From: Pseudomonas sp. St316
Lineage (GTDB): Bacteria; Pseudomonadota; Gammaproteobacteria; Pseudomonadales; Pseudomonadaceae
Length of the DNA: 64,000 nucleotides
NCBI RefSeq assembly: GCF_018325905.1
Contig: NZ_AP021901.1
Location: 2,728,001-2,792,000, forward strand
Direction: 5' to 3'
Shown here piece after piece: positions 8,290 to 50,790 of this stretch (position 1 is its first letter; each line of letters opens with the position of its first letter). The translations under genes and the position numbers were made by a program. The notes below the pieces were generated by a model. The model saw nothing but the letters and a program-made list of their open reading frames with translations. It was not told the DNA's origin and searched no databases.

Positions 8290-8404
8290 CGTGGCGAGGG
8301 AGCTTGCTCCCGCTGGACTGCGAAGCAGGCCCACGTTCTTTGTTTCAACGCAGAATTCCTGGGGCCGCTTCGCGCCCCAACGGGAGCAAGCTCCCTCGCC
8401 ACAG
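8290..8404. repeat. BIME: inverted pair of REP sequences
   Basis: GTGGCGAGGGAGCTTGCTCCCGCT at the left and its inverted partner (AGCGGGAGCAAGCTCCCTCGCCAC type, here with AACGGGAGC) at the right enclose about 70 bases with a GGGGCCGCTTCGCGCCCC hairpin inside. The same BIME family is at 50658-50790. The rest of the 7999-8620 gap shows no gene that I can support. Confidence 0.85.
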
Positions 8405-8619
8405 GGGTCGGTGTTTATCCAGATGTAGGATCGTTCTGGATCGGGCTACGTTGTCTTGCGCCGTTGCCTACAACTGCGCCAGAATCCGCCGGCTTGTGCG
8501 CCTTGGGGCCAGGGCTTTATCGTTTCCGGGTCGCTGATTGAATCAGTGATCGGGTTTGGTAGCCCGTGGTGTCGGTGCATAGCGTCATCTCTTGCAAGTG
8601 CAATCATGCACTTCGTTTT

Positions 8620-8756
8620 TTGGTGGCCATGCGCAGGGTCTCTTCGGAGGCGCCGGCTCCGATGCCCGGTCTACCAACCTTCGTATGGCCGCCACCCTAA
8701 TTCGTTTGGTAGCGAAAGGGTGCTGGCTCCTTTACAACTGCATCGGAGCTTTATCT
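8620..8756 (+). ncRNA. Structured 5' leader (candidate cis-regulatory RNA) of the DUF6124 gene
   Basis: The 137 bases before the start codon hold several strong pairings. CTC-TTCG-GAG at 8640-8649 is a UUCG tetraloop hairpin. CTACCAA (8671-8677) pairs with TTGGTAG (8706-8712). CACCCT (8693-8698), inside that loop, pairs with AGGGTG (8717-8722) outside it, which gives a pseudoknot. GCTCCGATG (8656-8664) pairs over nine bases with CATCGGAGC (8741-8749), which holds the GGAG ribosome binding site. From memory, similar leaders precede other DUF6124/DUF3077 genes in Pseudomonas. The function and any Rfam identity are unverified. Confidence 0.6.
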
Positions 8757-9107
8757 ATGTTCAAAGTAACCCCCAACCCACCAGATACAGATCCAACCCG
8801 CCCCAACTCAAAAGCGTTCGACAAAGCCGCCGACCGCATCCTCGACCACTACCTCAAGCCCAAACCCAACAAGCCCGAAACCGAACCCGGCCAACTGTTC
8901 ACTGTCGCCAACGGTGTTGACACCGAAACCCTGCTCGCCAACCTCAGCGAAACCCTGGCCTCGGCCAACGCCATGGTCAGCGACCTGGCTTTCGACCTGG
9001 AAGGCCCAAGGCGTCATGTCCTCCTGGGTATCCAGCAACTGATCGAACTGAGCGGATTGCTGGCAAATCGCGCGCTGGACAACATCGAGCCCCGCCAGTC
9101 GACATAG
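8757..9107 (+). CDS. DUF6124 family protein
   Basis: A 116-residue cytoplasmic protein of unknown function. It shows the family pattern: MFKVTPNPPDTDP at the start, a mid-protein FTVANGVDTETLLANLSETLASAN helix region, and a C-terminal helix pair ending LSGLLANRALDNIEP. The ATG at 8757 is preceded by GGAG at 8745-8748, part of the long-range stem described for the leader. An in-frame ATG 165 bases upstream would read through the structured leader and was not used. The protein is small and helical, with no catalytic motif. Such proteins occur in several copies per Pseudomonas genome. Confidence 0.85.
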   Translation: MFKVTPNPPDTDPTRPNSKAFDKAADRILDHYLKPKPNKPETEPGQLFTVANGVDTETLLANLSETLASANAMVSDLAFDLEGPRRHVLLGIQQLIELSGLLANRALDNIEPRQST

Positions 9108-9120
9108 CGCATCCCCCCCC

Positions 9121-9150
9121 TGTGGCGAGGGAGCAAGCTCTCTCACCACA
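9121..9150. repeat. Single REP palindrome
   Basis: TGTGGCGAGGGAGCAAGCTCTCTCACCACA is a near-perfect palindrome of the GTGGCGAGGGAG REP family, 13 bases after the DUF6124 stop codon, where it may serve as a 3'-end hairpin. A degenerate half element (GGAGCGAGCTTGCTCGGG) follows near 9182-9199. Confidence 0.75.
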
Positions 9151-9306: not shown

Positions 9307-10364
9307 TTACTGATCGGTGCGAATTGCCTGGGCTGCTTTCATTGCTTTCATTGCTTTGAGAAGCCTCCATTTGAGTTCATGGCGAGTGTCTTGTACTCGT
9401 GCGCGTGCTTTTTTCTTCACCGCCGTCGATGGTTTATTTTTCAGCAGCGCGGTTAAATCGGCTTCAGCTTGCAGGTATTTTTCCTGCCATTGGGGATCTC
9501 CCGAGATCGGAACCCGTCCGTTCTCTTTCACGAACTTGTCGAATTCCCGTGCAGATGCAGCACGGGCTCTCTTCCAACGGCCTTGTTTTGTCAAGCTACT
9601 ATCTGGCCTCTTGAGGCCATAGGCTGATTGCTCCCAAGGTAATACAAATGTCTTGTCACTTTGTTCAGGAACAGCTGCTGCTGGAGTGGCAAGGGCTGAG
9701 CTGGTCTCGGCCTTGGTGATTTCGGAAGCAGGAGGAGATACACGAGGAGAAGTAGTTTTGGAGGAAGAACTCAACGTGCCTGATGCGTTTGGTTTGGTCT
9801 CCCATGGTCGGAAGTAGCGAACCCACGGCCGGAAAAATGGAGCATTCCCACTCGGATCATACCGATTAACCGGATCCCCTCCGCAATACGCATACGCATT
9901 AATCCCCCATCCCCAAAAGGGCTCAGCTCATCCGGGCTGTTGAAACGCATCAACGCCGGGTTAAAAGCCCGGTTGCCCTGTCCCAGTAAATAGTGCCCGG
10001 TTATCGAGTCGGGGGGCGCGCCGTTGAAACCGAGCAAGCTGCTCAAACCACTTTCGGCAGAGTGGTAACCGTATGCGGTATAGGCCAGGTGCCGGATGTC
10101 TGTGGCCGTCCGGGTTTTTAATACTGAATGTTGTTGATCCGTTGCCAACAGCGTCGTCTTGGCGACGTCAGCCACGCGCAGGCGTTGCGCCAGCGGCTGG
10201 GCTTCATTTCGCGTGATCGTGAGCTGTTCCTGACCCTCTATCTCATTCACCAAATCGTTCCTTTGATAGAACCGTTGTGTGCCGGTGCTTTCCAGAGGCT
10301 TTAACCCTATGAGGCGATCCAGCGGGTCGTATTGATAGCGGCACAGTAACTTCAGCGATGACAT
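9307..10364 (-). pseudogene. Orphan RHS repeat-associated core protein, broken by a one-base deletion
   Basis: The upstream part (10364 to 9771) has the RHS-core signature, with TAYGYHSAESGLSSLLGFNG and GHYLLGQGNRAFNPALMRF, then RFNSPDELSPFGDGGL. Here the frame is lost: the expected NAYAYCGGDPVNRYDPSGN continues in the next frame and runs into the 9774-9307 frame. One A is missing near 9897-9902 (TTAATGCG where TTAAATGCG is needed). Restored, the product is about 352 residues: a short RHS tip, the DPSGN cut-site region, then a basic, lysine/arginine-rich C-terminus of about 150 residues. That tail may be a toxin domain. No immunity gene is visible next to it. The deletion could be real or a base-calling error. 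Confidence 0.85.
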
Positions 10365-50657: not shown

Positions 50658-50790
50658 TGTGGCGAGGGAGCTTGCTCCCGCTGGAGGGCGCAGCCCTCCC
50701 AAAAAACTGGACACAATCAGCCTGGCACACCGAGGTGACAGGTCTCGGGGCTGCTGCGCACCCCAGCGGGAGCAAGCTCCCTCGCCACAA
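50658..50790. repeat. BIME of the GTGGCGAGGGAG family
   Basis: GTGGCGAGGGAGCTTGCTCCCGCT and the inverted AGCGGGAGCAAGCTCCCTCGCCAC enclose about 85 bases with a GGAGGGCGCAGCCCTCC hairpin. It lies between the convergent DUF3995 and mrpG genes. Confidence 0.85.

Follow-up and report, generated by a model that had tools for sequence, protein, structure and literature searches.

The leader of a small DUF6124 gene on the chromosome of Pseudomonas sp. St316 is, by its fold and its pairings, a C4 antisense RNA with matching target sites over the ribosome-binding site. The locus is best read as a chromosomal copy of the C4 antisense switch of phages P1 and P7, repressing DUF6124, a reading to which we assign a probability of about 0.87 and in which repression is suggested by the anatomy of the locus and by analogy with P1.

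Organization of the cassette

Coordinates refer to the window, the whole 64-kb stretch of chromosome analysed here, and features lie on the + strand unless noted. The cassette, comprising leader and gene and measuring about 650 bp, occupies 8450-9107 as delimited by similarity among paralogous loci, which are dispersed in the genome. At the left edge, similarity to these loci climbs between 8440 and 8460 (from 2 to 11 of 16 own copies, and from 20 to 62 of 74 others), and at the right edge it drops at about 9080-9100, near the stop codon. A conserved upstream box of 24 bases (8467-8490) recurs with at most three mismatches at 12 places in the genome, 11 of which precede C4 cassettes, the exception being place 109593. 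A possible promoter, TTGTGC-18-TATCGT (8494-8523), was picked by eye, and a similar hexamer is similarly placed in other copies; it is absent from the promoter-scan list and is also not the choice of hexamer scoring in this copy. Transcription would start near 8530.

Within the cassette the elements follow in the order a1'b1', C4, a2'b2' and gene, which we take to be the P1/P7 order, as partly supported by the Rfam name of RF03163 and by PMC5320573. The c4-a1b1 target region (RF03163; 8517-8570) scores 41.4 bits against a gathering score of 46.7, a value exceeded by 11 of the 24 RF03163 matches across the St316 genome. Target a1' of C4 segment a (8552-8563) is predicted to form a duplex of -10.0 kcal/mol with 8670-8679, and target b1' of C4 loop b (8567-8579) a duplex of -16.6 kcal/mol with 8655-8667. 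The C4 antisense RNA itself (RF01695; 8616-8699; 68.4 bits, cut-off 45) is the sole Rfam match at gathering score in the window, and contains a GG at 8622-8623 that is invariant in 25 of 25 own C4 copies. Its segment a (8671-8677) has seven pairs with target a2' (8706-8712; -8.5 kcal/mol), which is cognate in the permutation test described below, and its loop b (8656-8665) has ten perfect pairs with target b2' (8740-8749; -21.0 kcal/mol), which includes the Shine-Dalgarno GGAG (8745-8748) of the DUF6124 gene (8757-9107; 116 aa; PF19619, 109.4 bits, cut-off 27).

A putative terminator-like hairpin with a T run was located by scan at 8596-8621. Such sites occur in 10 of 25 own leaders (4.8 expected from shuffles) and in 18 of 42 leaders of other genomes (8.2 expected), and because this is only about twofold above the shuffles, an attenuator between a1'b1' and C4 is not claimed.

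Inverted copies of GTGGCGAGGGAGCTTGCTCCC, similar in appearance to the REP-type repeats of Pseudomonas, flank the cassette on both sides (8291-8402 and 9122-9149) and recur in the window at 50659-50788, with six matches at three or fewer mismatches where none is expected. The DUF6124 gene adjoins an OprD porin gene. The product of a nearby reading frame (9774-10364, - strand), which resembles the end of an RHS/YD-repeat protein, has no Pfam match.

An earlier note had described positions 8620-8756 as a pseudoknot-like leader that could hide the start of the DUF6124 gene, and had proposed an Rfam search, which identified the C4 at 8616-8699 above cut-off, and a covariation check, whose outcome is given below. 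A structured leader able to cover the Shine-Dalgarno sequence is borne out, with support from compensatory changes, and the structure exceeds chance: the 137 bases contain six perfect helices of at least six pairs, which 10 of 2000 dinucleotide shuffles equal or exceed (helices of ten or more pairs appear in 4, and of nine or more in 35, of the 2000), while the RNA 8530-8759 folds with z = -4.16 (equally stable shuffles, 0 of 200). The pairings of CTACCAA (8671-8677) with TTGGTAG (8706-8712) and of GCTCCGATG (8656-8664) with CATCGGAGC (8741-8749) lie where the note placed them and are the conserved cognate a:a2' and b:b2', the second of which actually extends to ten pairs, covering the GGAG ahead of the ATG at 8757; the UUCG hairpin is found at 8638-8651. 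The C4 fold itself and the upstream targets a1' and b1' had been missed, and the limits had been set too far downstream, the element starting about 100 bases 5' of 8620.

The third pairing of the note, CACCCT (8693-8698) with AGGGTG (8717-8722), is present and draws on the basal stem of C4 (its 3' arm and tail), but does not clearly belong to the conserved system. In the cognate test, applied to the three sets of sequences defined below, 1, 576 and 1469 of 10,000 permutations reach its run length, and 1, 37 and 6 its duplex energy. Given this mixed support, the partner at 8717-8722 is not counted as an established part, and of the two pairings that the note had described as crossing, a:a2' is conserved while the other is not clearly so.

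Conservation of the fold and specificity of pairing

The three-helix C4 fold is kept by covariation, both among the own copies and in other genomes. In the 25 own copies, 97.0% of helix cells are paired, and two-sided changes occur in 15 of 27 pairs (0 of 500 shuffles); in 70 distinct rows from other genomes, in an alignment that was fitted to the model from the own copies and so leans towards structure, 97.3% are paired, with two-sided changes in 19 of 27 pairs and 176 cells (again 0 of 500 shuffles).

The loops prefer the targets of their own leader. Cognate pairing was assessed in three sets, namely the 25 own copies, those 17 of them that precede DUF6124, and 42 leaders from other genomes, the last retained from 83 C4 matches in 80 named loci on the basis of a distinct a plus b and at least 110 bases upstream; four weak opposite-strand matches had been dropped beforehand. 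The longest Watson-Crick run is greater with own targets for a:a1', a:a2', b:b1' and b:b2' alike (0 of 10,000 permutations each), and the means of duplex energy agree (0 or 1 of 10,000), although, when partners are ranked by energy, the own target comes first less often (for b:b1', in 3 of 25, 5 of 17 and 2 of 42). Both downstream pairings reach at least six pairs in 19 of 25 cognate combinations, compared with 4 of 600 other combinations; in the remaining six own copies, at least one of the two is shorter. Variability within the C4 RNA is highest in loop b, and 25 distinct b and 15 distinct a sequences are found among the 25 own copies.

These data bear on the suggestion of the earlier note that the leader is a sensing switch, in which a ligand or temperature would free the ribosome-binding site by opening a cis-acting pseudoknot. 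Such a riboswitch or thermosensor would account for a leader more stable than its shuffles and for pairings that lie in cis. Its 5' part is, however, a C4 antisense RNA, another set of targets for these loops lies upstream, loop b varies more than any other segment, unlike a ligand pocket, and no riboswitch family is matched at gathering score in an Rfam search of the window (at a permissive threshold, the leader yields C4, c4-a1b1, isrK and a chance-level PhotoRC-I match, and nothing else). Since a and b each have targets on either side of C4, RNA is what is recognised, and a ligand-sensing pseudoknot is very improbable.

Loop and target changes at orthologous sites

Relatives of OprD lie beside six of the 80 named loci, and four of these were used as orthologues of the St316 site: L097 (Pseudomonas sp. 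Q11), L099 (P. zanjanensis), L111 (Pseudomonas sp. RGM2987) and L149 (Pseudomonas sp. K18), the two not included in the comparison being L164 and L168. The left flank is common to all four (87-90%), while the right flank has long stretches at 91-94% in L097 and L099, and only about 74% in L111 and L149. Relatives of the 9774-10364 product adjoin L099, L111 and L149.

By comparison of these sites, loop and targets have changed together. The orthologues retain the same segment a, helices and gene start, whereas b, b2' and (by eye) b1' occur in three versions. The b:b2' duplex on the own target has -21.0 kcal/mol in St316 and -17.0 in L097 and L099, compared with -9.1 to -12.8 across these two versions; the version of L111 and L149 discriminates little, with -12.2 to -13.8 on its own target and -13.0 on that of St316. 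At another orthologous site, which adjoins a repressor gene, the change amounts to one base at three places: a single base of a (T or G) agrees with its counterparts in a1' and a2' in 9 of 9 loci.

It might be argued that the cassettes are relics of phage immunity genes, devoid of present function and maintained by duplication alone, in keeping with the phage origin of C4 and with the existence of decayed copies in St316 (L005, whose DUF6124 gene appears frameshifted, L025, which has no recognisable gene, and L057 and L058, which lack the start region). The two-sided helix changes across genomes and the coordinated changes of loop and target at orthologous sites require selection, and we consider a functionless relic improbable.

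Copies in the St316 genome

The St316 genome (one contig, 6.78 Mb) contains 25 C4 matches, all above cut-off. As assigned by position and translation, the genes behind them encode DUF6124 in 17 cases (L005 included), DUF3077 in three, a family starting with RYMPITG in two and an LSRF family in two, the remaining copy being L025. Conversely, 17 of the 22 DUF6124 matches in the genome lie directly behind a C4, one is a second, partial match behind the gene of L018, and four (L056-L059) are without C4; all three DUF3077 matches lie behind a C4. In L001, L002 and L006, DUF3077 begins about 130 bases behind the C4, and a short reading frame directly follows the C4, an arrangement that we take to resemble that of icd before ant in P1.

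Genes behind an a1b1 target hairpin and without C4 are found in L056, L062 and L063, and could be trans targets or escaped copies. When the leaders of L060-L063, which have the a1b1 hairpin without C4, were compared, together with that of L056, with all 25 own C4 RNAs, none of the latter was a clear match.

Distribution in the genus, the class and mobile elements

C4 is present in 138 of 149 genomes of the genus; with 27 C4 candidates scored per genome, 33 of the 149 reach this number and thus hold at least 27 each. DUF6124 is found in 118 of the same 149 genomes, and is linked to C4 in its occurrence, being absent from all 11 C4-negative genomes (Fisher P = 6e-9, uncorrected for relatedness), while 20 of the 149 have C4 without DUF6124. 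At the level of loci, a C4 stands directly ahead on the same strand at 76 of 80 DUF6124 loci in named genomes; it is missing from L112, L127 and L163, and L114 starts too near the contig end for a C4. Elsewhere in the class, in a sample whose listed genomes include one further member of the family and another two of the order, C4 occurs in 17 of 273 genomes with one to six matches each.

Other proteins are also found behind C4. Ten proteins behind C4 in other genomes of the class matched AntA (one), Rha (two), Bro-N (two), ORF6C below cut-off (one) or nothing (four), and because these were picked by eye from 20 of 26 non-own loci, with five antirepressor-like proteins included, the antirepressor share is no estimate. 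Among Pseudomonas loci, L038 encodes behind its C4 a Bro-N domain protein with matches to PHROG antirepressors, and similar proteins stand behind other C4 copies. A family of 52-57 aa proteins is located behind C4 in L027 and twelve similar loci (alignment A8) of other Pseudomonas genomes; the member tested (L042 sequence for Pfam) has no Pfam, NCBIfam or PHROG match. Cassettes also occur in tandem within 8 kb, with three C4 matches in L165 and two in L143, and the small gammaproteobacterial genome G409 (1.5 Mb; L073, L082, L087) contains six C4 matches, of which four fall in 1.4 kb of a single contig.

Two simple accounts of this distribution were rejected. DUF6124 is not phage or plasmid cargo, occurring in 1 of 50,697 phage records and in 0 of 72,556 plasmid records, and there are no constant neighbour genes, every flanking family being present at no more than 9 of 80 loci, with recurring sets that look like orthologous sites. 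In IMG/VR, C4 is found in 9 of 10 DUF3077 loci and 39 of 40 DUF6124 loci, many of these loci being near-copies, and with 23 of the 40 representing one site beside a repressor gene of 94-100% identity. This site is exemplified by L196 (1718-2461, - strand), where a few hundred bases separate the C4-DUF6124 cassette from a gene for a repressor that has HTH and S24 peptidase domains, and is known from 23 viral and 9 chromosomal loci. The neighbouring repressor gene hints at an antirepressor role for DUF6124, at what is a single orthologous site.

The DUF6124 protein

For DUF6124, AlphaFold2 predicts a helical hairpin and, with less certainty, an N-terminal helix (mean pLDDT 79, pTM 0.52), and DUF3077 is likewise predicted as a helical hairpin, at low confidence (mean pLDDT 66). 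A Foldseek search with the DUF6124 model returned nothing at E <= 0.001 in PDB or BFVD, no sequence relatives were found in PDB, and there are no matches in NCBIfam, PHROGs or PADLOC; the protein is not recognised as an antirepressor by these three collections or by Pfam. A single superfamily for all C4-linked proteins was considered and rejected: the DUF6124-DUF3077 similarity is weak (hhalign E 5e-5, probability 67%), and the RYMPITG-type family matches neither of them, and matches the LSRF-type family (hhalign E 4e-12).

The same RNA anatomy could belong to a toxin-antitoxin or selfish element, in which DUF6124 would harm growth and C4 would act as the antidote. Mutually specific antisense control of a small protein by a compact, multi-copy, dispersed cassette would suit such an element, and P1 Icd, from the C4-controlled operon, blocks cell division according to PMC8201110. 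Set against this are the lack of a PADLOC match for DUF6124, its predicted helical-hairpin structure and its occurrence without C4 at four places in the own genome, and a toxin role seems to us rather unlikely.

Proposed mechanism and relation to known systems

In the preferred reading, a C4 antisense switch repressing DUF6124, one transcript starting near 8530 would carry a1'b1', C4 and a2'b2' ahead of the DUF6124 gene. By analogy with P1, the C4 RNA is probably released by RNase P cleavage at the GG at 8622-8623, and its a and b would then pair with a2' and b2' of its own mRNA, covering the Shine-Dalgarno sequence and keeping DUF6124 translation off. Acting in trans, C4 would also repress any other RNA that carries this target. 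Pairing with a1'b1' may provide feedback on transcription, or a decoy that titrates C4. Many such modules, of differing specificity, are dispersed over the chromosome.

In P1, C4 controls an antirepressor. The immI systems of P1 and P7 (RF01695, RF03163) share with the St316 locus the C4 fold, the two target sets around C4 and the b target on the ribosome-binding site. They differ in that the St316 C4 is chromosomal and multi-copy and is followed by DUF6124 instead of icd/ant; with DUF6124 as the gene, it falls outside a P1-type immI in the sense of a C4 controlling the phage antirepressor gene ant. The C4 mechanism of P1 is described in section 16 of PMC5320573 (Weiss et al. 2016), which also reports 21 C4-like RNAs from A. 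baumannii, expressed, apparently processed and with unknown targets, and cites the prediction of C4 by Weinberg et al. in Pseudomonadales among others; the c4 and c4-a1b1 motifs are listed by Weinberg et al. 2010 (PMC2864571). The A. baumannii Group 1 sRNAs resemble the St316 C4s in their number per genome (21, and 25 in St316) and in their variable loops; their RNAs are expressed, whereas those of St316 have been read from the genome, each with targets on both sides and mostly with a small gene behind.

A further comparison is offered by the Salmonella Gifsy-1 IsrK-orf45-AnrP operon (PMC4825925), described as a prophage operon where a short upstream RNA relieves repression in trans. The likeness lies in a short RNA before a terminator and a stable RNA of the read-through transcript, followed by an antirepressor gene; the difference is that the weak isrK match in St316 (8530-8621; 22.8 bits) is far under the cut-off of 50, and that the St316 gene is not a known antirepressor. 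A term search of that paper found no mention of C4 RNA, C4-like RNA or phage P1.

C4 is known, and multi-copy C4 is known in another genus. No paper on Pseudomonas C4 modules or on DUF6124 was found in the open-access literature, and cis-linked Pseudomonas C4 modules with separate specificities seem undescribed.

Biological meaning

A tentative extension, on the doubtful side in our own estimation, is that the 20 or more mutually orthogonal and quickly re-specified C4 modules of Pseudomonas chromosomes, derived from phage immunity, would form a trans-acting library of immunity specificities against incoming elements that use C4-controlled genes; titration of C4 by a matching target would then free DUF6124 and DUF3077 as antirepressor-like effectors. 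On the reading as C4 switches, bacterial chromosomes carry a phage-immunity regulator as many parallel switches, each with its own specificity, suggesting a mode of control for DUF6124 and DUF3077, two families without known function. The many natural variants of loop and target make the specificity and evolution of an RNA testable in one cell, and a possible target of multi-copy bacterial C4 RNAs is the gene that immediately follows each of them.
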